The notes beneath the pieces were generated by a model. The model saw only the letters and a program-made list of their open reading frames with translations. It was not told where the DNA came from and did not search any database. A stretch of 46,631 nt of DNA from Desulfobacterales bacterium (GTDB lineage Bacteria > Desulfobacterota > Desulfobacteria > Desulfobacterales > UBA11574): positions 1 to 46,631 of the forward strand of contig JAQYVT010000013.1 of the NCBI GenBank assembly GCA_030145345.1, read 5' to 3'. Position 1 is the first letter of the stretch. Each line of letters starts with the position of its first letter. Below, in pieces: positions 3,339 to 14,830 of the stretch. The translations under genes were made by a program, and so were the position numbers.

Positions 3339-3920
3339 TTATTTCTGTTCTAACGCTTCAACCTTACGAAAGATCGACTCTAAAGGACCGCTTCCTTTTG
3401 AAGGGATCTCAAAAGAGACTTTTCCTTTGCCCATGAGTTTCATCCCCAGCGGGGCGAACTGAAGCGGTATGAAAGGGTTTTTCATGGAAAGAAAATAGAG
3501 CGTCATGAACTCCATCTCTCTAACCCGGCCATGGCGGCGTACACTCTCCATAAAGCTTTTGTAAAATCGGATACTTTTCTTATAGGGTGCCAGATTTTCT
3601 TTTGCAGCGATCTGCTTGAGTGCACTCATCGTCTCGGTAAGTGGAAGCCCTCGGGGACATCGCAGTGTACAGAAATAGCAGACGGAGCATAGGGAAAAGG
3701 TCTTGCTGTGAAAAATTGTCTCCTTTTCCCCCATAAGGACATTGTACCACAGCTGGCGCGGCGTGAGATCCATGGCAAAGGCGTTGGGGCAAGAACCGGT
3801 GCAGGTGCCGCATTGGATGCAGGCACTTACCATGTCCCGGATTGTGGCCAAAGAATCAATGACGGGTTCGGGTACGGTTGAAGAAACCTTTTCGATTTCT
3901 ATTTTCTCCGTTGGGTTCAT
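3339..3920 (-). CDS. hdrC: Heterodisulfide reductase subunit C-like iron-sulfur protein
   Basis: 193 residues. Two [4Fe-4S] motifs appear: CIQCGTCTGSCP near residues 34-45 and CSVCYFCTLRCP near 78-89. This is the HdrC arrangement, which relays electrons from the flavin subunit HdrA to the disulfide-cleaving HdrB. The C-terminal 90 residues are helical and lack cysteines, as in other HdrC proteins. The ATG start is supported by AAGGAGGG eight bases upstream. It sits 33 bases after the receiver-containing hdrA and is probably co-transcribed with it. No signal peptide is visible, so a cytoplasmic complex is expected. Confidence 0.93.
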   Translation of the reverse strand: MNPTEKIEIEKVSSTVPEPVIDSLATIRDMVSACIQCGTCTGSCPNAFAMDLTPRQLWYNVLMGEKETIFHSKTFSLCSVCYFCTLRCPRGLPLTETMSALKQIAAKENLAPYKKSIRFYKSFMESVRRHGRVREMEFMTLYFLSMKNPFIPLQFAPLGMKLMGKGKVSFEIPSKGSGPLESIFRKVEALEQK

Positions 3921-3953: not shown

Positions 3954-6900
3954 CTATGCCGTTCCTTCAAGCGCCGAATCGATGACGTCGAACATTTGCT
4001 GGTCTAAAAACCCGGCAAGGGTCGATGCGCTGTTCGGGCAAACCGTGGCGCATGATCCGCATCCTTGACACATGGCGGGGCTGACCAGAACTTTTTCCAG
4101 TTCCAGATCGACCCTGCGAGCACCGTATGGACAGGCCTCGATACACCGCTCACATAGACTGCAAAGGCTGTGACGGACCTCTGCCACCACTTTTCCGGCA
4201 GGCATCCGTTCATGTGAAAGAATCCTTAAGGCTCTCTGGGCCGCAGCTTCGGCGGTTGCTATCGATTCCGTGATGTTGCGGGGAGAATGGGCCAGGCCGC
4301 AGGCAAAAATTCCTTCTTTGAGCGAATCGACGGGTCTCCATTTCGATTCCGCCGCCTCAAAAAAGCCGTCCCGATCTACCGTCGCGCCATAGGATTCCGC
4401 CAGATCTTTGGGTAGTCTGGGTACAATACCGGTGGCAAGAACAACAAGGTCGGCATCGATCTGGACCTTTTGTCGGATAATCGGTTCAACGGCCGTCACT
4501 CGAACAGATCCGTCCATGGGCGTGACCCGTGGTTTTTCAGCCAGATCGTACCGGATGAAAATGACACCGGCTTTTCGGGCTTTAGTGTAATAGGACTCGG
4601 TAAAACCATAGGTCATCATGTCCCGATAAAGAATGTAGACATTAATTTCCGGATTTATCTCCTTGAAATTCAGTGCGTGTTTTAAGGCCGTGGTGCAGCA
4701 TATGCGGCTGCAATAATTCCTGGGTTCCTGCCTGGAATCGACACATTGAATCATGACAATCGACTCGAGTCGACTTGGGTCGATTGTATTGGCATGTATT
4801 TTTTTCTCCAGTTCCTTTTGGGTGACAATTGCCTCGCTTGTGCCGTAGTTATAGGATGTCGTAACCGCTTCCACGCCTCCGGCAGCAAGGATCGTCACGC
4901 CATGTTTCAGAGTGAAAGCGTCCTTTTCTTTGGCCTCAACAGTGGTATAAAAACGCCCGACCTGACCATGGGAAGCGCGCACTCGGCTATGGGTGTGGAC
5001 CCGAATGAGTGGGTGTTTTTCCACCTTCAAAAGCGTTTCGTCTAATATGCTCTTTGTTGTGTTGCCGTCCAAGGTTCGTTGTAACCAATTAAGGTTACCC
5101 CCCAACATCTCTTCTTGCTCGATCAGATCGACCTGAAAGCCGTGATCTGCGATGGCAAGCGCTGAGGACATCCCGGCAATTCCGCCGCCCACCACCAGGG
5201 CTTGCTGAAGAATCTTTTCGTAGCTTACAGGATCCGGATCAGCCCACTTAAGCCGGGCAAGTCCTGTGCCCAAAATAGCCAACACGTCGCTGTTGATTTT
5301 TGATATCTCGTCCGCAGACAAAGTTTCAGATTTCAGATTTGAGACTCGAGCCATAAGCATTAAATCGACCACCTCAATAAGAACCGGATTCAGCCCCACC
5401 CGCCGTCCCAGTTCCCTGATTTTTTTGGCATACACATCGGGAAGGCAGGACCCGATCAGAATCCGGTTCGGTGTGTGTTTTTCAACCCGTTCAATAAGGT
5501 TTTCCCATCCCGTAACCGTACAGGTTTGTTCAAGGAAGTCGACCTGATCCACAGCGGGGTCGACCTTGAGATTCCGGACAAGTCGTTGCGTGTCGAGAAG
5601 CTTTGAAAGCAGATCACCGCAGGTGCAGACAGCGATCATGACCTTGGGCGGTTCCTGTGAAATATCGAATAAAGGCGCTTCGGGCGTAGGTTCAGGCGTA
5701 AGGCTGCCGCCGCCGGCATGAATTGCCCGGGATGCAGACAAAGCAGCGGCAGAAGCCTGAATGACAGATTCACTGATATCCTTAAGGCCGGAGAAGGAGC
5801 CCCCCAATACGATCCCCTCTTTATGTATTCGCGTAAGTGAGAAGGGTTCGGTCTGGCCAAACCCCCACTGATTGAGCGGCATTTCCACCATTTCGGCCAA
5901 AGCTGTTGTACCCAAAGCCGGTCTTTGGCCCACGGAGAGTACAACCATGTCAAAGATCTCCTCTCTATAAGTGCCGGAATAATCAACATGCCTGACCATG
6001 AGATCGCCGCTGTTTTCATCATATAAAATGGAATGGACGCGCCCTTTCTCAAATCGAACGTCGTGTTCGGTTTCCGCCCGGTCACGATATCGCTGAAAAG
6101 ATTTCCCGAAAGTCCGCATATCCATATAAAAGATGGCTGCTTCCAGCGCCCCGCCGGCCCTTTCCTTGGCCACAAGGGCTTCTTTGATCGCATGCATGCA
6201 GCAGATGGACGAACAATAGTCGGCGTCGATTTTGATGTCTCGCGATCCCACACACTGAAGCCAGGCCACCTTGCGCAGCGGTTTGCCGTCGGAAAGGCGC
6301 ACCAGTCGACCCTGATTCGGCCCTGTACCACTTAAAATCCTTTCAAACTCAAGGCTTGTGACCACATTCGGATATAACCCGTACCCATACGTGTTCTTGC
6401 CTTCGGCCGGATCGAAATAGGATGTTCCGCCGCAGAGAACCAGGGCGCCGACCTCCATCGGGGGTTCTTTGCTTGCTTCGAGATCCTGATATGTTCGGAT
6501 GATCATCGGAATAAGGGTGTCGGGATCGAACGGTTTGAGGAGATAGTCCAGCGCCCCTATTTTCATGGCTTCTACAGCGGTCTCTACCGTGGCATACGCC
6601 GTCATCATGACAACACTGAGGTCGGGGAAAACCTCTTTGGCCTTCTGAAGGAGTTCCACACCGTCCATTCCCGGCATTTTGATATCTGCGAGCATCAGTT
6701 CGTATGCTTGTTTTGACAAATGATTCAGGGCTTCCGGACCGGATGCAGCCATATCGACGGCAAAACCTTCATCTTCTAACCAGGCCTTGAGGGAATCGCG
6801 CATGATCAATTCATCGTCCACCACCAGGATTCGAAAATCTTTGCGGACTTCTTCTAAAAGCTTGATGGCTCCGGTAGGACATATTGCTTCACATTCCCCA

Positions 6901-7403
6901 CACCGACTGCAAGCATTCGTATCGATAATATACGCGTTGGGGATCGCATGCGGAACCGGAAGGTAGATGGCCTTTCGCCCGGACAGGCCGGCGTTAAAGG
7001 AATCCAAAACCTCTACCGGACAGACCTTCACGCACTCACCGCAACCGATACAACGGGCAGGATCAACGAGATTCGGCGCTTGGCGAAGTGATACCTGAAA
7101 GTTGCCCGGTTCGCCTTCTACGGAGACAAGTTCGGTGGACAAGCGTATTTCGATGTTCTCATGGAAAAGCCCTTTGCGGAGGCAATACTGGGACGATGTA
7201 TCTCGATCCACCATTGGAAGCATTTTGCACATGCCGCAGCGATCGGTGGGAAACTGATAATCGAGCTGGCTGAGAACCCCTCCAATGTGGGGTGAGCGGT
7301 CAACCAGGGTTACACCATAGCCAAATTCCGCCAGATCCAGGGCGGCCCGGATACCGCTGATGCCGGCCCCCACCACCAGTGCTTTGCCGATTTTTTTCTT
7401 CAT
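3954..7403 (-). CDS. hdrA: Tandem HdrA with an internal response-regulator receiver domain
   Basis: 1149 residues, well above the roughly 650 of a single HdrA. Domains in order: FAD-binding Rossmann motif VGAGISG (11-17); two [4Fe-4S] motifs near 118-128 and 165-175; a receiver domain at about 190-310 with acidic pair D196/D197, phosphoacceptor D240 in ADIKMPGMDG, T268 and K290; the remaining HdrA flavoprotein part; an HdrA-type N-terminal domain starting near 588; a second FAD motif VGGGIAG near 733; and a C-terminal two-cluster ferredoxin (CSLCERCIEACP and CQGCGSCATVCP). HdrA is the flavin subunit that splits electron pairs. All receiver residues needed for phosphorylation are present, so activity could respond to a histidine kinase; none was found here. 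An AGAAGG site precedes the ATG. hdrC follows 33 bases later. Confidence 0.92.
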   Translation of the reverse strand: MKKKIGKALVVGAGISGIRAALDLAEFGYGVTLVDRSPHIGGVLSQLDYQFPTDRCGMCKMLPMVDRDTSSQYCLRKGLFHENIEIRLSTELVSVEGEPGNFQVSLRQAPNLVDPARCIGCGECVKVCPVEVLDSFNAGLSGRKAIYLPVPHAIPNAYIIDTNACSRCGECEAICPTGAIKLLEEVRKDFRILVVDDELIMRDSLKAWLEDEGFAVDMAASGPEALNHLSKQAYELMLADIKMPGMDGVELLQKAKEVFPDLSVVMMTAYATVETAVEAMKIGALDYLLKPFDPDTLIPMIIRTYQDLEASKEPPMEVGALVLCGGTSYFDPAEGKNTYGYGLYPNVVTSLEFERILSGTGPNQGRLVRLSDGKPLRKVAWLQCVGSRDIKIDADYCSSICCMHAIKEALVAKERAGGALEAAIFYMDMRTFGKSFQRYRDRAETEHDVRFEKGRVHSILYDENSGDLMVRHVDYSGTYREEIFDMVVLSVGQRPALGTTALAEMVEMPLNQWGFGQTEPFSLTRIHKEGIVLGGSFSGLKDISESVIQASAAALSASRAIHAGGGSLTPEPTPEAPLFDISQEPPKVMIAVCTCGDLLSKLLDTQRLVRNLKVDPAVDQVDFLEQTCTVTGWENLIERVEKHTPNRILIGSCLPDVYAKKIRELGRRVGLNPVLIEVVDLMLMARVSNLKSETLSADEISKINSDVLAILGTGLARLKWADPDPVSYEKILQQALVVGGGIAGMSSALAIADHGFQVDLIEQEEMLGGNLNWLQRTLDGNTTKSILDETLLKVEKHPLIRVHTHSRVRASHGQVGRFYTTVEAKEKDAFTLKHGVTILAAGGVEAVTTSYNYGTSEAIVTQKELEKKIHANTIDPSRLESIVMIQCVDSRQEPRNYCSRICCTTALKHALNFKEINPEINVYILYRDMMTYGFTESYYTKARKAGVIFIRYDLAEKPRVTPMDGSVRVTAVEPIIRQKVQIDADLVVLATGIVPRLPKDLAESYGATVDRDGFFEAAESKWRPVDSLKEGIFACGLAHSPRNITESIATAEAAAQRALRILSHERMPAGKVVAEVRHSLCSLCERCIEACPYGARRVDLELEKVLVSPAMCQGCGSCATVCPNSASTLAGFLDQQMFDVIDSALEGTA

Positions 7404-7430: not shown

Positions 7431-8585
7431 CTAAAGGTTACAATGATTTCCGATGCCGACAACCTCGGCAAGCTCGTCTTCACGGAATACTGACAGCGGA
7501 AGATCATCCTCAATGCTGCGACCCGCTTCGTACTCAAAAGCATTTTGTGTATGATATGAAACGGTTCTAAACAGTTCCATCACCGGAATGTCGTTGGGAC
7601 AGGCATTGGTGCACTGACCGCATCCGACACATGAGGTGCTCATGTGGGCCATCCGAGTCAAGTGGTAAAAGACGGTATCGGTGGGCATTTTGATCACCCC
7701 CTTGCGATTGGCCCATCTAAGGTACTGAACAGGATCATGGTTAAAGACATCCGTAACAAAAACACATTCCTTACAGTAGCAGACCGGACAGGCCACCCTG
7801 CAGTTGTAGCAATTTACACACTCGGCAAAATAGATATTCAGTTTCTCCAGGCTGTTTGTGGCTTCAGCGGTCTCGGCAAACATTTTATCGCGATAGGCGG
7901 TTCGTTCAGCGACCAGAGATTCAACAACCGCAGGACGTTCGGGTGGTTCCTCTGTGTCGGAAAGATCAAGGGTCTCATAAAGCGTCTCTCCTTTCGGCGT
8001 CCGGGCTTGGATCAAAAGTTGATTGTTGGTATCGACCCCGAACAGTCCGATTAAAATATCTGCACCGTCAGGGATCGGGTTTTCACAGGCCTTGCACGCA
8101 GGCGCGAGATCAAATCCTTCAAAAGTCAATTTTTTTCCGGATAAGGCGTCTTTGTAAAAGCTTGAAGTGAATTCTGCTTCTTTTTTTCCAGCGATCTGGA
8201 TATAATCGCCATTCTTGAAAGCACCCAGGCAGTCGATTCCTACCAGCAGCACCTCTTCGATTCGGCCTTGCTTGAGTTTCACGAGTTCGACAAACGCACG
8301 TATCTCGCAGGGACGTAGCACCACCGCAACCTTAGCGCCCATGGGCTTGCGTGTGAGCCGGGAAACGATTTTTGCCGCGTTCAAGGGAAAAACCGGTGCC
8401 AAAGGGTCGGTGCCGTTCAGTTGTTCAGGATCCGTCACCAGCGTCGGCATCACTACGTTTGTCGCAGGGAGATGTTGTGGAACCAGGATTGCACTGATAT
8501 CTTCCAGCTGGAGGATGGATCGAAAAAAATCTCGTAGAGTTGTCAACAGGTCGCCGTCATTTACGTTGATTTTCGCTGTTTTCAC
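7431..8585 (-). CDS. FrhB/FdhB-like iron-sulfur flavoprotein subunit
   Basis: 384 residues starting at a GTG codon at 8585. AGGAGG lies nine bases before it, whereas the longer in-frame ATG version has no ribosome site. The N-terminal 230 residues match the FrhB/FdhB beta-subunit family, including the VLRPCEIRAFVEL segment. The C-terminal part carries two cysteine clusters, CVNCYNCRVACPVCYCKEC and CVGCGQCTNACP. Members bind FAD and iron-sulfur clusters and pass electrons between a pyridine nucleotide, F420 or ferredoxin and a partner complex. The gene lies between mvhD and the receiver-type hdrA, 28 bases from the latter, so it is probably the electron-input module of this Hdr complex. The physiological donor cannot be read from sequence. 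Confidence 0.85.
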   Translation of the reverse strand: MKTAKINVNDGDLLTTLRDFFRSILQLEDISAILVPQHLPATNVVMPTLVTDPEQLNGTDPLAPVFPLNAAKIVSRLTRKPMGAKVAVVLRPCEIRAFVELVKLKQGRIEEVLLVGIDCLGAFKNGDYIQIAGKKEAEFTSSFYKDALSGKKLTFEGFDLAPACKACENPIPDGADILIGLFGVDTNNQLLIQARTPKGETLYETLDLSDTEEPPERPAVVESLVAERTAYRDKMFAETAEATNSLEKLNIYFAECVNCYNCRVACPVCYCKECVFVTDVFNHDPVQYLRWANRKGVIKMPTDTVFYHLTRMAHMSTSCVGCGQCTNACPNDIPVMELFRTVSYHTQNAFEYEAGRSIEDDLPLSVFREDELAEVVGIGNHCNL

Positions 8586-8696
8586 TGTCCGTTTCCTCCT
8601 GATTGAAACCTGAAACTCGCTATTTGTACTGGTTGCCTTCAATTAAAAAAGAATTTTGCTGTTGGTATTTGATCACGGCATCAAAATACCATTAAT

Positions 8697-8744: not shown

Positions 8745-9167
8745 TTATATTACCATGGTCGCTTTAGCCTCATTGGGACCCAGCGTTTTGATCTGTGCCA
8801 CCATTGAATGAATGGTCTCGGCGAACTGGATGCCGTCACTGGCGCCGATCCAGGTCAACCTGAGCCGCTCCTCTCCAAAGCCGAATTGGGGAAGGATCTC
8901 TTTGAGAAGCTTGATCCGCCGCCGAGCCTTAAAATTTCCGTTGATATAATGGCAGTCTCCGGGGTGACATCCACTGACAAGGACTGCATCGGCCCCCTCA
9001 AGCAGCGCCTTGATCACATATTTGGGGTCAACCATGCCGGTACACATGACCCGAATCAATCTCACATTGGCAGGATATCCCAATCTGGCAGTTCCGGCCA
9101 GATCCGCAGCGGTGTACGTGCACCAGTTGCAAACAAAGGCGATGATCGTGGGTTCGAAGTTAGCCAT
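8745..9167 (-). CDS. mvhD: MvhD-type [2Fe-2S] subunit
   Basis: 140 residues, the usual MvhD length. Conserved cysteines lie in CNWCTYTAAD (residues 13-22), in VMCTG near 41-44, and in SGCHPGDCHY near 65-74. MvhD binds a [2Fe-2S] cluster and docks a donor enzyme onto HdrA; in methanogens it joins the NiFe hydrogenase to HdrABC. No hydrogenase gene is seen here, so the FrhB-like or GltD-containing subunits next to it are the likelier partners. The start has GGAGGG six bases upstream. It lies between the GltD-containing hdrA and the FrhB-like gene. Confidence 0.94.
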   Translation of the reverse strand: MANFEPTIIAFVCNWCTYTAADLAGTARLGYPANVRLIRVMCTGMVDPKYVIKALLEGADAVLVSGCHPGDCHYINGNFKARRRIKLLKEILPQFGFGEERLRLTWIGASDGIQFAETIHSMVAQIKTLGPNEAKATMVI

Positions 9168-9506: not shown

Positions 9507-12500
9507 TTACATCCCCACTGAATGCAGCGAATCAACGATCCCTTCGAGTTCTGCAAATATCTGCTTCTCGTTGAAATGTTTAACCTGTGCCGCACCGCTT
9601 GGGCAAAATCCTGAACAACTTCCACACCCTTTGCAAAGGGCTTCATTGACCACCGAGACGCCCATGCGGGCATTATATTCTATGGCCGTATATGGACAGA
9701 GCTCGATACAGGTCCGGCACCCGGCACACACATCCGGGTCAATCCAGGATATGATGGGAGCAACCTCCACCTTCCCAAGGGTGGCCAAAGCCAGGGCTTT
9801 GACGGCTGCTCCGGAAGCCTGGGAAACCGCATCCGGAATATCCTTGGGACCTTGACAGGCTCCGGCCAAGAAGACGCCGTCCGTAGCAGTATCCAACGGA
9901 CCCAGTTTGGGGTGTTCCTCCAAAAAAAATCCATCGGCACCCAGGTTGACGCCAAAGATTCTGCCCACCTTGTGAGCATCACTGCGGGCCTGCATGGCCA
10001 CGCAAAGGACAACCATATCGACCGGAACCCTTAAACGTCTTCCCAAAAGGGTGTCTTCTGCAATTGCAATGAGTTTACCCGCCTCTTCCGGTTTGAGAGC
10101 CTGGTCGGTAATCTCTGCCACCTTTCCCCTGATGAAGTGGGTTCCTTCTTTCTGGCACCGGTGATAAAATTCTTCGTAGCCTTTGCCAAAACAGCGCATG
10201 TCGATGTAAAAATTATAAACCCGCGTGTCGTGACCGACCTTCTCATGAATTAAATGGGCATACTTGAGGGCGTACATACAGCAAACCCGGGAGCAGTATT
10301 CGTGATAGTTCACATCCCGGCTGCCGATGCAGTGCAAAATGGCCACGCTTTTTGGGGTTCGGGTCAAATCCTTGTTTTCGTCTCTGATAAAGATCTCGCC
10401 GCCGGTGGGCCCGGTTGCATTACTGAGGCGCTCGAATTCAAGAGAAGTAAAGACATTGGGATATTTACCGTAGCCAAATTGCTTCATGGGTGTGGGATCC
10501 ATGATGTCGTAACCGGTGGCGATGATAATACTCCCAACTTTTACCTCCAGTTCTTCTGCCTGTATATTGTGATCTATGGCCTTGGCCTCGCAGACCTTAA
10601 CGCATTCCATACATTCACAGCAGACACCGCAATTAAGACAGCGACGGGCTTCTTGTTGGGCCGCATTTTCTGAAAATCCGAGGTTCACTTCGTCAAAGCA
10701 GGCAGCACTCATTTTGACGTCCAGATGCTTTGGATGGGCCCGGGTTTTTTGGGGAATCCCTTCCGGAATTTTTTGCCAATCAGTGCCCGGTTTTTTCAGG
10801 GCCTCGAGTTGTTGCGTGTAAAGTTCCAGGTCCTCGCCGCTGATATAGCGATGGATTGCCTCGACAGCCTTGTGACCCGCAGCCACCGCCTGTATCACGG
10901 TGTCCGGGCCGGTAACCGCATCGCCTCCGGCAAAAACATAGGGAATACTGGTTTGCATTGTTTGGGGGTTGACATTCAGTGTGTTTCGTTGGGACCATTT
11001 CAAGTCCGGCACCCGGGCTGCCCAGGATGTATCAATTTTCTGACCAATGGCCGGAATCACCGCATCACAGGGGATTACGAATTCGGAACCGTCCACCGGA
11101 ACCGGGCGACGTCGTCCACTATCGTCCGGCGGTCCAAGTTGGGTTCGGATACATTCAAAGCCGTCCACCATACCCGCTTTTGCAAGAATCCCGACCGGAG
11201 CGGTGAGAAAGGAAAAGCGAATCTCTTCCTTTTTAGCCCCCTCGATCTCTTCTGCATAGGCCGGCATTTCCTGTTCTGAGCGGCGATACACGACAGTGAC
11301 TTCTTGGGCCCCCAGACGTTTTACAACCCTTGCAGCGTCAATGGCCACGTTACCGCCGCCGATGACCACAACCCGGCTGCCGGGGCATGTTTTATTGCCC
11401 AAATTTACGTCTCTTAAAAAGCGAACCGCATCGACAACGCCCTGGGTGTCCTTTTCACCGGGGATTTGCATATCCAAAGAATTATGGGCGCCAATCCCTA
11501 AAAATATAGCGGCAAAACCCTCTTCTTTGAAATCTTCAAATGTGAGATCAATTCCGAATCTGATGCCGGTGCGCGTTTTAACCCCCAGTCTGAGGATGTG
11601 GTCTATCTCCTGATCCAGAACTTCCGGCGGGAGCCGATAATCCGGAATGCCCACCCGGAGCATTCCGCCCAAAACCTCAAGTGCTTCAAAGATGGTTACC
11701 TGGTAGCCCTTTAACCGCAGGTAGTATGCGACGGTCAGCCCCGACGGGCCGGATCCGATCACGGCCACCTTTTCCGTGCGTTCTTCGATTTTGGGCGGCT
11801 CGAGCCCTTTCAAATTCGCATGGTCAGCGGCAAAGCGCTTCAAATCCCTTATGGCAATTGCCTCATCCAACTCCTGCCTTCGACATTCAGATTGACACGG
11901 ATGCGGACAGACGCGGCCCAGGACTCCGGGCAGCGGCAGTCGCTCCATGATGAGTTGCGTTGCCTCCTGATACTTTCCTTGGCCGACAAGTTGCACATAG
12001 CCCTGGATATTGATGCCTGCCGGACAAGCGGTTACACACGGCGGCCGGTCTTTTTTGTCTATACAAAAGGTAATGGGTACGGCCTGTGGAAAGGCTCTGT
12101 AGATGGCCTTTCGATGGTCCAGGCCCTCATCCCATTCACTGGGAACCGATACCGGGCAGACATTAACGCAATCACCACACCCGGTACAGACACCCTCTAT
12201 TACATGCCGCGGTTTGCGACGGATTTTAACGGTATAGCTGCCGATGTATCCCGTTACTTCTTTTACCTCGCTGTACGAAAGCAACTCGATGTTTGCATTC
12301 TGGACCACTTCGACCATTTTTGGGGTTCCAATACATGCGGCACAGTCGAGGGTCGGAAACGTTTTATCGAACTGGAGCATATGGCCGCCAATGGTTGACG
12401 ATTTTTCTACCAGATATACTTTATGTCCCGAATTGCCGATGTCCAGGGCCGCCTGCATGCCGACAATGCCGCCGCCCACAACCATGATATCCGGATGTAC

Positions 12501-12917
12501 ATTGACCTTTCGGGCATCAAGGCGTTCATGATAATTGACCCGGTTAATCGCCGCTGCCGCAAGTGTTTTTGCTTTGCGGGTGGCCTCATCTGCATCCTTG
12601 GTCACCCATGAAACTTGTTCGCGAACCGAAGCCATTTGGAAGAAATAAGGGTTGAGCCCGGCCCGCTGGCAAGCACCTTGAAAGGTCTTCTCGTGGAGTC
12701 TTGGCGAACAGGAGGCAACGACAACCCTGTCAAGGTCAAATTCCTTAATGTCCTTTTCGATCATCTCTTGGCCGGGATCTGAACACATGAACTTGTAGTC
12801 TCTTGCGATCACAACATTTTTTAGTTCTCTGGCAAAAGCCGCCACTTCTTCTACACGGACTTTGCCGGCAATATTGATTCCGCAATGGCAGACATAAAAA
12901 CCTATCCCGATGGACAT
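9507..12917 (-). CDS. hdrA: HdrA with an internal GltD/NfnB-like NAD(P)H oxidoreductase module
   Basis: 1136 residues. The first 280 are a normal HdrA start: CHCG at 10-13, FAD motif VGGGIVG at 147-153, DCAACIGTP at 191-199 and a ferredoxin motif CTGCGDCVNVCP at 244-255. From about 285 to 760 a GltD-like module is inserted. It shows the cysteine-rich CVTACPAGI and CPHPCQSEC segments, a second FAD motif (IGSGPSGL, 387-394), an NAD(P)H motif (IGGGNVAID, 519-527) and the FAGGDAVTGP signature near 662-671. HdrA sequence then resumes at CCECMECVKVC (766-776) and ends with two [4Fe-4S] motifs near 1060-1110. This gives HdrA its own NAD(P)H site and supports flavin-based bifurcation between NAD(P)H, ferredoxin and a disulfide. 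A GGGGGG site precedes the ATG. The stand-alone GltD gene at 14,831 carries a homologous module. Confidence 0.93.
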   Translation of the reverse strand: MSIGIGFYVCHCGINIAGKVRVEEVAAFARELKNVVIARDYKFMCSDPGQEMIEKDIKEFDLDRVVVASCSPRLHEKTFQGACQRAGLNPYFFQMASVREQVSWVTKDADEATRKAKTLAAAAINRVNYHERLDARKVNVHPDIMVVGGGIVGMQAALDIGNSGHKVYLVEKSSTIGGHMLQFDKTFPTLDCAACIGTPKMVEVVQNANIELLSYSEVKEVTGYIGSYTVKIRRKPRHVIEGVCTGCGDCVNVCPVSVPSEWDEGLDHRKAIYRAFPQAVPITFCIDKKDRPPCVTACPAGINIQGYVQLVGQGKYQEATQLIMERLPLPGVLGRVCPHPCQSECRRQELDEAIAIRDLKRFAADHANLKGLEPPKIEERTEKVAVIGSGPSGLTVAYYLRLKGYQVTIFEALEVLGGMLRVGIPDYRLPPEVLDQEIDHILRLGVKTRTGIRFGIDLTFEDFKEEGFAAIFLGIGAHNSLDMQIPGEKDTQGVVDAVRFLRDVNLGNKTCPGSRVVVIGGGNVAIDAARVVKRLGAQEVTVVYRRSEQEMPAYAEEIEGAKKEEIRFSFLTAPVGILAKAGMVDGFECIRTQLGPPDDSGRRRPVPVDGSEFVIPCDAVIPAIGQKIDTSWAARVPDLKWSQRNTLNVNPQTMQTSIPYVFAGGDAVTGPDTVIQAVAAGHKAVEAIHRYISGEDLELYTQQLEALKKPGTDWQKIPEGIPQKTRAHPKHLDVKMSAACFDEVNLGFSENAAQQEARRCLNCGVCCECMECVKVCEAKAIDHNIQAEELEVKVGSIIIATGYDIMDPTPMKQFGYGKYPNVFTSLEFERLSNATGPTGGEIFIRDENKDLTRTPKSVAILHCIGSRDVNYHEYCSRVCCMYALKYAHLIHEKVGHDTRVYNFYIDMRCFGKGYEEFYHRCQKEGTHFIRGKVAEITDQALKPEEAGKLIAIAEDTLLGRRLRVPVDMVVLCVAMQARSDAHKVGRIFGVNLGADGFFLEEHPKLGPLDTATDGVFLAGACQGPKDIPDAVSQASGAAVKALALATLGKVEVAPIISWIDPDVCAGCRTCIELCPYTAIEYNARMGVSVVNEALCKGCGSCSGFCPSGAAQVKHFNEKQIFAELEGIVDSLHSVGM

Positions 12918-12969: not shown

Positions 12970-13908
12970 TTAGGCCCCTGTTCTCAGAAAAGTCTTCACC
13001 AGCTGATCCCACTCGAGTTCCGGAAAACTACCGAATACATCGCTAATCGGCTGGGCGCCGGTAGCCGCCAACTGTTCATATTCCGGCCCCACTAGATTCA
13101 ATAGTTGTCTGCTCTCCTGCTCCATCCACCGCATGCTCTCTTTGCCAAAATAGAGCCCTTTCAAATTTTTTTTGGGCATATCCGGCTCTATCATACAAAG
13201 CCAGCCTTCATTATACGGATCTTCGTGTAGAATCTCGGGATGATCGAGGGCTTTGTGGTTTACAGCAATAACAGTCCCGGTGACAGGAGAGAGCGATGCA
13301 GCTTTTCGACCACTTCGACCGATTATCAATCCGGTTTGATCTTTTTTAAGGGTATCCCCAAGGGGCGGGAGGTTCAAAAACTGAAAAGTACCGAACAGCT
13401 TGATGACGAAATCGTCAAATCCGATTCTAACGCGCCCCCCGTGATCGAAACGTACCCAACAATGGCCCGGATGGTAATAATAGCCGGTGGCCATTTTATA
13501 CCCCGACGCTAAATAATAGTTGGGCGAATCACTGAGTTGTGCAAGATCAAAATCGTCCATCATTTGGTCAAAAGCGCAATGATAGCATTCATAGTTGAGT
13601 GGACAGATCTTGGGGGCATCGATACGTCCAGTTAAGGAATAGCGGCAAGGTCGTTCAGAGCCCTGGTAGCGTGTCTTTAAATACTTGACCCACTCAGGTT
13701 CTTTCAATTCGATTTCTGTATGATTCCCGGAACTCATGGCTCGCTGCATCCCTTTGTCGAAAGGACAGGTGCAACAATCATAGACATTATCACAAAATCG
13801 GAAATTGATAACTCCGGCCTTCATCCAGATACATTCATCTTCCACGACCCGAAACCCGACAAGGCGTTTCTTTTTCGATTTTTCTTTTTTTTCCATTTTT
13901 TTCTTCAT
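12970..13908 (-). CDS. GcvH-like lipoyl-domain protein with two cysteine motifs
   Basis: 312 residues from the ATG at 13908, chosen because AAGGAGG lies eight bases upstream; an upstream ATG adding 65 residues lacks a site. After a lysine-rich start come two copies of a C-x5-C-x2-C-x2-D-x2-M motif (C39/C45/C48 and C102/C108/C111). Residues about 148-242 resemble glycine-cleavage H protein, with GHCWVRFD and GTVIAVN. K202 in GRKAASLSPVTG sits where H protein carries lipoyl-lysine. It is first in the Hdr operon, 52 bases before hdrA, with no gcvP or gcvT nearby, so a role in glycine cleavage is unlikely. By analogy with the lipoate-binding proteins of sHdr sulfur oxidation, it may carry a dithiol to HdrB. 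The cysteine motifs may bind a metal or an iron-sulfur cluster. Confidence 0.85.
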   Translation of the reverse strand: MKKKMEKKEKSKKKRLVGFRVVEDECIWMKAGVINFRFCDNVYDCCTCPFDKGMQRAMSSGNHTEIELKEPEWVKYLKTRYQGSERPCRYSLTGRIDAPKICPLNYECYHCAFDQMMDDFDLAQLSDSPNYYLASGYKMATGYYYHPGHCWVRFDHGGRVRIGFDDFVIKLFGTFQFLNLPPLGDTLKKDQTGLIIGRSGRKAASLSPVTGTVIAVNHKALDHPEILHEDPYNEGWLCMIEPDMPKKNLKGLYFGKESMRWMEQESRQLLNLVGPEYEQLAATGAQPISDVFGSFPELEWDQLVKTFLRTGA

Positions 13909-14830
13909 GCCGGCAACCTCCTTTGCTTCTGCATAGCCGCCCCTGGCAGCAAAGGTTCTGTCCGGTATTGAGGGAGATATCTTTTCAATATACTTCTTTA
14001 CCCAGCGGAAGTTGAGACTACGGCGCCACTGATTACCAAAAGGACTTGCATTGTTTCTATAAATTGCAACCTTGGTGCCACAAACCGTTGCACAGATTGT
14101 CAAAAGATCTATTCTATTTGAATCATTGAACTTTTGAAGCGCTTTCTTGCGCCATAGGGGAAAAGGGTGATTTGAAGGGCGTAATGGATGTGATTAAATT
14201 GGCTACGCATGGAACGGATATGGAAAAACAATTTATTATTAATTGAATTAAAACAATTGATTATAGCACTGTAGCTTTTAATGCATCTGCTGTAGCCAAT
14301 GGTTACACCCTATGATCAAATAATTTCTAAGGCATATTTTCAACCATGATAGCGATTGTGAAGCTCCCCGGGAAACCCCGTTCTTTAGGATGGGGCTTGG
14401 GGGGATAAGGCCGGTCAAAACAATATCTTGAAATGGACATTCAGTCATAGAAGCAGCCCATGGGTTTAGCATGAAAATTTGCTTAAATTTATTTAAAAAT
14501 TAATGGGTTATAGATATTCATCTGAAAAATAATTATTGACAAAAAAATGAGGCTGTGGTTTCTAAATTAATAAATTTGTATAATAATAATTTAATGTTTA
14601 TTCAGTTCTGAAGCGGGTCCTCGAAAAATATTTTGCGTTTGGGGGGTATTTATTGCTCCGCTTCCTTTGTGAGGCCTTTGAAAAATGTGCAACGGTGCCC
14701 ACCCCAATGAAGCCCTGAAATGGGAAAAGCTGTTCAATGCAAATATTTTATGGGCTGAATGGCCAGTAGACTGGAGCCCGCGTTTTTATCCAAAACATAA
14801 AAACATAGTAGCAGTTGTTGAGTATTTTAT
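13909..14830. other. Divergent intergenic region between the Hdr and GltD/Nuo operons
   Basis: About 920 bases without a credible gene separate two divergently transcribed operons. The central part is AT-rich. Near 14,358-14,400 is a GC-rich stretch with CCCCG...GGATGGGGC hairpin potential, which on the minus strand resembles the ends of IS200/IS605-type elements; no transposase is present. A promoter candidate for the GltD operon lies at 14,536-14,584. Minus-strand promoters for the Hdr operon must also lie here, but none is convincing by eye. Confidence 0.5.
14536..14584 (+). promoter_or_regulatory. Possible sigma-70 promoter region for the GltD/Nuo operon
   Basis: A perfect TTGACA lies at 14,536-14,541 and a perfect TATAAT at 14,579-14,584, but they are too far apart to form one promoter. 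Each lacks a good partner at 17 bases. The region is AT-rich and faces the GltD-like gene, giving a leader of about 240 bases if TATAAT is used. Confidence 0.3.

Follow-up and report, generated by a model that had tools for sequence, protein, structure and literature searches.

The window analysed, a stretch of 46,631 nucleotides from a draft genome of a Desulfobacterales bacterium, carried a run of hdr-type genes on its minus strand (Table 1). They included hdrA(REC), which encodes a tandem HdrA with a response-regulator receiver domain. HdrB, hdrC and mvhD were encoded together with hdrA(REC), as is expected of the genomic context of an HdrA, and the position of hdrL upstream of it was conserved in relatives. 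Judging from the protein families, the complex would act on ferredoxin, with NAD(P)H as the substrate of HdrL and a disulfide as that of HdrB. After hdrB, here and in locus L044, an Epimerase-type SDR was encoded (108-1796), with a long C-terminal stretch that no Pfam model matched. A gene at 12970-14103 encoded a GcvH-like domain and approximately 200 aa of N-terminal sequence without assignment; its paralogues occurred as pairs adjoining a GAF kinase in loci L043 and L167.

Table 1. Features of the hdr-type gene cluster and of hdrA(REC), with window positions. Residue numbers (res) refer to hdrA(REC), except in the hdrL row; TrxR, thioredoxin reductase.
Feature	Position	Strand	Basis
hdrB-like, two CCG domains	1893-2786	minus	Pfam, NCBIfam
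hdrC-like	3339-3920	minus	NCBIfam
hdrA(REC), tandem HdrA with receiver, 1149 aa	3954-7403	minus	ORF, Pfam, NCBIfam, PDB
C-terminal 2x[4Fe-4S] ferredoxin domain, res 1079-1124	4032-4169	minus	Pfam, alignment; Cys invariant
Unit 2 FAD/TrxR-like domain, res 734-1060, GGGIAG, without inserted ferredoxin	4224-5204	minus	Pfam, alignment to 5ODC_A
Unit 2 HdrA N-terminal domain, res 584-681	5361-5654	minus	Alignment to 5ODC_A
Unit 1 FAD/TrxR-like part 2, res 316-570	5694-6458	minus	Alignment to 5ODC_A
Receiver (REC), res 190 to about 303-304	6495-6836	minus	PF00072, fold, conservation
K290	6534-6536	minus	K in 82/82 fusions
T268, switch residue	6600-6602	minus	T in 81/82 fusions
D240, predicted phosphoacceptor	6684-6686	minus	D in 82/82 fusions
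D197, acidic pocket	6813-6815	minus	D in 80/81 fusions
D196, acidic pocket	6816-6818	minus	D in 80/81 fusions
Inserted ferredoxin, res 113-183, two [4Fe-4S] motifs	6855-7067	minus	Pfam, alignment to 5ODC_A
Unit 1 FAD/TrxR-like part 1, res 1-110, GAGISG	7074-7403	minus	Pfam, alignment to 5ODC_A
FdhB/FrhB-like electron-transfer subunit	7431-8642	minus	PF04432
mvhD/FlpD-like	8745-9167	minus	PF02662, E = 7.8e-53
hdrL, HdrA with inserted GltD/NfnB-like NAD(P)H domain (res about 285-695)	9507-12917	minus	Pfam, NCBIfam

Architecture of the receiver-bearing HdrA

An earlier note on this DNA had claimed the open reading frame of hdrA(REC), which was recovered at the same place, on the minus strand and 1149 aa long, with an ATG start and a Shine-Dalgarno-like AGGAG 5' of the gene. 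In the PDB, the protein matched HdrA (5odc_A, E = 1.1e-110). The NCBIfam model hetero_SS_HdrA2 (NF040770) scored it at 669 bits against a curated cut-off of 1100, so it is a homologue rather than an equivalog of archaeal HdrA/HdrA2. The constituents of an HdrA, namely the FAD/TrxR-like domain, the inserted and C-terminal ferredoxins and the Fe-S cysteines, were all present, spread across two units. The domain order was FAD/TrxR part 1, inserted 2x[4Fe-4S] ferredoxin, receiver, FAD/TrxR part 2 and a second HdrA unit consisting of an N-terminal domain, a FAD domain and a C-terminal 2x[4Fe-4S] domain. In an alignment of relatives, C56 and C59 of unit 1, all eight cysteines of the inserted ferredoxin (C118/121/124/128 and C165/168/171/175) and C384, C397, C401 and C402 of unit 1 part 2 were invariant; C59 aligned to Cys197 of archaeal HdrA.

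Four blocks of the protein aligned to 5odc_A: residues 7-183 (TrxR-like part 1 and inserted ferredoxin), 316-498 (TrxR-like part 2), 584-681 (N-terminal domain) and 980-1148 (end of the TrxR-like domain and C-terminal ferredoxin). Unit 1 thus lacks the N-terminal domain but has C59, the equivalent of Cys197, and unit 2 has the N-terminal domain. The inserted ferredoxin domain was the only one in the whole chain, and the receiver followed directly after it. Since residues 183 and 316 align to residues 311 and 319 of HdrA in 5ODC_A, the receiver occupies a connector that measures only about 7 residues in archaeal HdrA, which agrees with its placement between the ferredoxin and flavin parts in the earlier note.

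The receiver, of CheY/NtrC type, was matched by Pfam Response_reg (PF00072) at residues 192-301 over model positions 1-110 of 111 (E = 6.5e-31). A (beta-alpha)5 fold was accompanied by a D-D/D/T/K site, and the claim of an intact receiver held for each of the five residues named. No DNA-binding output domain was detected in hdrA(REC) with Pfam, which sets it apart from two-component transcription regulators. An AlphaFold2 model based on a 26-sequence alignment (mean pLDDT 77.9, pTM 0.78) contained all five beta-alpha units of the receiver (block pLDDT 71-92), and its top Foldseek matches were HdrA structures.

Both the PDB sequence search and Foldseek gave as best matches HdrA of the HdrABC-MvhADG, Fdh-Hdr and Elp-Hdr complexes (PDB 5ODC, 7BKB, 8RVU), in which domains, cofactor cysteines and fold are as in hdrA(REC). 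Whereas those complexes contain a dimer of single units, hdrA(REC) is a tandem protein with a receiver after the inserted ferredoxin, and it is encoded in a bacterial operon with HdrL. The second HdrA unit predicted in the earlier note was borne out, but the tandem layout is not special, being common without a receiver (see also PMC9012536). ANME HdrA3/4 and the Moorella MetFV-HdrABC-MvhD complex also have two units per chain, which complement each other in N-terminal domain and Cys197 (PMC9012536). In hdrA(REC) the unit order is reversed relative to these fused HdrA, and a receiver of approximately 125 aa, not reported for them, is inserted.

The GltD/NfnB-like domain of HdrL (9507-12917) sat at the inserted ferredoxin of that protein. 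Comparable GltD/NfnB-like insertions are found in an ANME-1 HdrA (PMC9012536) and in HdrL of Desulfobacterium autotrophicum (PMC2702500). From the positions of this domain and of the receiver, one HdrA region took two different inserts in neighbouring genes.

Distribution, conservation and origin of the fusion

All or part of the fusion was encoded by 29 relatives in a sample of 60 genomes. When relatives with the same insertion were sought, as the earlier note had proposed, the fusion region was matched in 148 of the 390 sampled genomes of the order, representing 69 of 150 genera, and in 10 of 297 genomes of a phylum-wide sample. Many genomes encoded the fusion at 50-92% full-length identity, and viral contigs gave just two weak, partial matches. 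It was also encoded at locus L221, which we take to belong to the D. autotrophicum HRM2 genome. The gene neighbourhood matches that of HdrA4 at locus VIII of this strain (tandem hdrL/hdrA copy, fdhB, hdrBC; PMC2702500); the main text of that paper makes no mention of a receiver in HdrA4.

A scan was made with one genome per species, taking identity over the HdrA part after the receiver. Among the matches listed, the receiver was present in all 16 homologues that were at least 46% identical and in none of the 64 tandem HdrAs that were at most 42% identical, which had the same tandem layout. The simplest reading would be a single insertion in the ancestor of the subfamily, followed by constant retention. 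The source draft genome is fragmented (188 contigs), which would favour a chimeric assembly or an annotation artefact; this reading is refuted because many independent genomes, some of them single-contig, encode the fusion as well. The single open frame and the uniform codon composition (third-codon G+C of 0.58 within the receiver and 0.55-0.58 outside) also speak against it, and its probability is negligible. The receiver-bearing HdrA is real and conserved; it is apparently undescribed in the literature searched, in which no paper linking HdrA with a receiver domain was found.

The receiver was better conserved than the HdrA part that follows it (mean pairwise identity 0.66 vs 0.48), and its alpha4-beta5-alpha5 face was among the most conserved stretches. 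A comparison of 82 distinct fusions yielded the residue counts in Table 1, with L187 as the exception to intact receiver residues. Degenerate phosphorylation residues in homologues, which the earlier note had regarded as evidence against its proposal, were confined to a single family of two genomes. The receivers of this family, at L186 (7415-10960) and L187 (9624-13208), carried D197P and T268A, and that of L187 also D196T; the kinase HK1, described below, did not adjoin hdrA in either. These fusions would be natural loss-of-phosphorylation controls. In a single-contig genome (L227:1566-5018), an in-frame TGA after the receiver splits hdrA(REC), for which a sequencing error, a pseudogene and readthrough are candidate causes.

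In a receiver tree of 124 columns, the HdrA receivers formed one group (89/96), with weak support inside it. The nearest receivers were of NtrC-type and lay beside this group, suggesting that the HdrA receiver was captured from an NtrC-type regulator. hdrA(REC) differs from the NtrC/AtoC-type response regulators in its redox-enzyme output and in having neither an AAA+ nor a DNA-binding domain. The DVU0259-family regulator (NF045717) is a stand-alone single domain that shares about 26-32% identity with the HdrA receiver. Genes for Usp-REC-Usp proteins adjoined hdrA(REC) at L050:14656-15987, L048:4283-5608, L212:6535-8046 and L213:6695-8017. Their receivers shared 67-74% identity with the HdrA receiver and fell, with weak support, inside the HdrA group; later copying of the receiver into these nearby-encoded proteins is possible.

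Histidine kinases at the fusion loci

The commonest neighbourhood was hdrL-mvhD-fdhB-hdrA(REC)-hdrC-hdrB-HK1-HK2 on one strand (e.g., L059, L082, L084 and L179), where HK1 and HK2 are histidine kinases; in L056, L066, L209 and L232, HK1 came directly after hdrA(REC). The earlier note had advised looking for neighbouring kinases in relatives, and among the 63 fusion loci for which 5.5 kb or more of downstream sequence was available, 55 encoded a histidine kinase no more than 6 kb downstream, 46 of them on the same strand. HK1 was present in 46 and HK2 in 44 of these 63 loci. Among the matches listed in the scan of one genome per species, with the receiver-less loci as control, kinases were more frequent near HdrA with than without a receiver (1.03 vs 0.13 per 10 kb), as were loci with a kinase (10/16 vs 5/64; Fisher p = 1e-5 by locus). 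Across the 60 relatives, relatedness being ignored, HK1 was encoded by 25 of 30 genomes with the fusion and by 13 of 30 without it.

The architecture of HK1 was that of a membrane kinase (transmembrane, HAMP, PAS, HisKA and HATPase); in 44 of 46 cases, the part predicted to be periplasmic held a CxxCH motif. HK2 consisted of a receiver and a HATPase domain with a conserved His. The catalytic His was found in every HK1 (56/56) and HK2 (53/53). The CxxCH sensor is a lead only: the Pfam search gave just a sub-threshold PF21563 match and none to PF11845 (sCache_heme), and the PDB search returned no heme sensor, so that these searches do not support HK1 as a proven sCache_heme sensor. Cache sensors with covalent heme do exist (PMC12889525).

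No second non-kinase receiver lay near HK1 in 38 of 51 HK1-bearing loci. NtrC-type regulators occurred near some fusion loci, and a DVU0259-family regulator adjoined HK1/HK2 in six receiver-bearing loci and in the receiver-less L093 (6913-16228). The latter is a syntenic operon in which hdrA has no receiver and the stand-alone receiver lies beside HK1/HK2, as if hdrA and kinase were connected in trans. Genus g8 has no HK1; there, the neighbouring place was taken by a PAS kinase, either alone or together with a Usp-REC-Usp protein. Within the window, hdrA(REC) had no adjoining kinase on its contig, base 1 being the contig end. The HK1 orthologue of this genome (62%) was on contig C51, in a different Hdr locus. 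A GAF kinase adjoins hdrA(REC) in a sister species, and its orthologue here (77%) was on contig C179. HK1 was also away from hdrA(REC) in genomes taken to be those of D. autotrophicum and Desulfonema magnum.

Distances between HK1 kinase cores, corrected for overall divergence, correlated with those of the HK2 receiver (partial r 0.40), whereas no co-evolution signal with the HdrA receiver was detected in this weak test (partial r 0.08). HK1 may thus mainly serve HK2. The correlations would fit a relay from HK1 through HK2 to HdrA, a shared target, or no link between HK1 and HdrA.

Possible control of HdrA by phosphorylation

As the receiver is intact, conserved and kinase-linked in most relatives, direct post-translational control of HdrA by a two-component system is the most likely reading and best explains the data, with phosphorylation and gating as predicted steps. 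To this extent the earlier note's idea of direct phospho-control stands, whilst its gating of bifurcation is kept as a proposal.

We lean towards a model in which hdrA(REC) is a flavin subunit that acts as its own response regulator, and phosphorylation of D240 gates the exit of electrons to ferredoxin. It would serve as the flavin subunit of a complex transferring electrons through HdrL-MvhD-FdhB-HdrA-HdrC-HdrB. A histidine kinase, HK1 and/or HK2, encoded directly downstream in most relatives, would phosphorylate D240 and so rearrange the alpha4-beta5-alpha5 face of the receiver. Because the receiver connects the chain's only inserted ferredoxin to the bifurcating flavin domain, this change would move or lock the ferredoxin domain. 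Reduction of ferredoxin (or its oxidation, when the enzyme confurcates) would then go up or down, or partner docking would change, within seconds and without transcription. In known HdrA, the inserted ferredoxin is the low-potential electron exit and the docking site of polyferredoxin, and electron transfer is conformationally gated (PMC12350162, PMC9012536). The receiver, at the root of this domain, appears well placed to gate it. What the sequences show directly is an intact receiver, where it sits, how well it is kept and its linkage to kinases; we infer phosphorylation, the identity of the kinase, gating of the ferredoxin exit, the direction of the effect and bifurcating activity. A more specific version, in which HK1 with a c-type-heme-like sensor phosphorylates the bifurcating enzyme at its low-potential exit, possibly via HK2, is conceivable and put forward tentatively. 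Such HK1-driven gating of HdrA would be the first case known to us in which a two-component system gates electron bifurcation by phosphorylation.

The alpha4-beta5-alpha5 face, among the best conserved parts of the receiver, is the usual dimer or partner face, and the inserted ferredoxin domain is a docking site too in archaeal HdrA (PMC12350162). Both would suit a phosphorylated receiver that governs assembly or location, through docking of HdrL, MvhD or FdhB, dimerisation, or a ferredoxin or membrane partner, instead of electron transfer. A receiver set into the short connector seen in 5ODC would, however, also move the ferredoxin domain, and we consider control of assembly without an effect on electron transfer unlikely. 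The receiver might also have a purely structural role, as an inherited fold that is retained for stability and not phosphorylated. Pseudo-receivers occur in other proteins, and in the family of L186 and L187 (f81) a degenerate receiver was kept at the same position. Such a role is made quite improbable by catalytic residues that are intact in 80/81 fusions or better and by the strong enrichment of kinase genes at receiver-bearing loci.

Signals could also run in the reverse direction, the redox state of HdrA setting (de)phosphorylation of a receiver that acts as a phosphate sink or reporter, tuning HK1/HK2 and thereby transcription. That HK1 distances follow the HK2 receiver and not the HdrA receiver would be in line with this, as would the NtrC-type regulators near some loci, but in most loci no transcription-type regulator adjoins HK1. 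We know of no precedent for such reverse flow and give it very little credence.

If direct control through the receiver holds, many Desulfobacterales-like organisms would switch their core energy metabolism within seconds by phosphorylation, and a signalling pathway may act on an enzyme of that metabolism itself rather than on genes. An oxidoreductase would also be a rare kind of response-regulator output. With enzyme, switch and sensor kinases then coming from one operon, the proposal could be tested in vitro with a single gene cluster.

The source genome also encoded HdrA-like N-terminal genes at L166:10986-11414 (contig C51) and L169:4127-4570 (contig C29), with one TGA stop near the Cys194/Cys197 motif. 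The TGA probably encodes selenocysteine, which is reported in HdrA of other sulfate reducers (PMC5109826).
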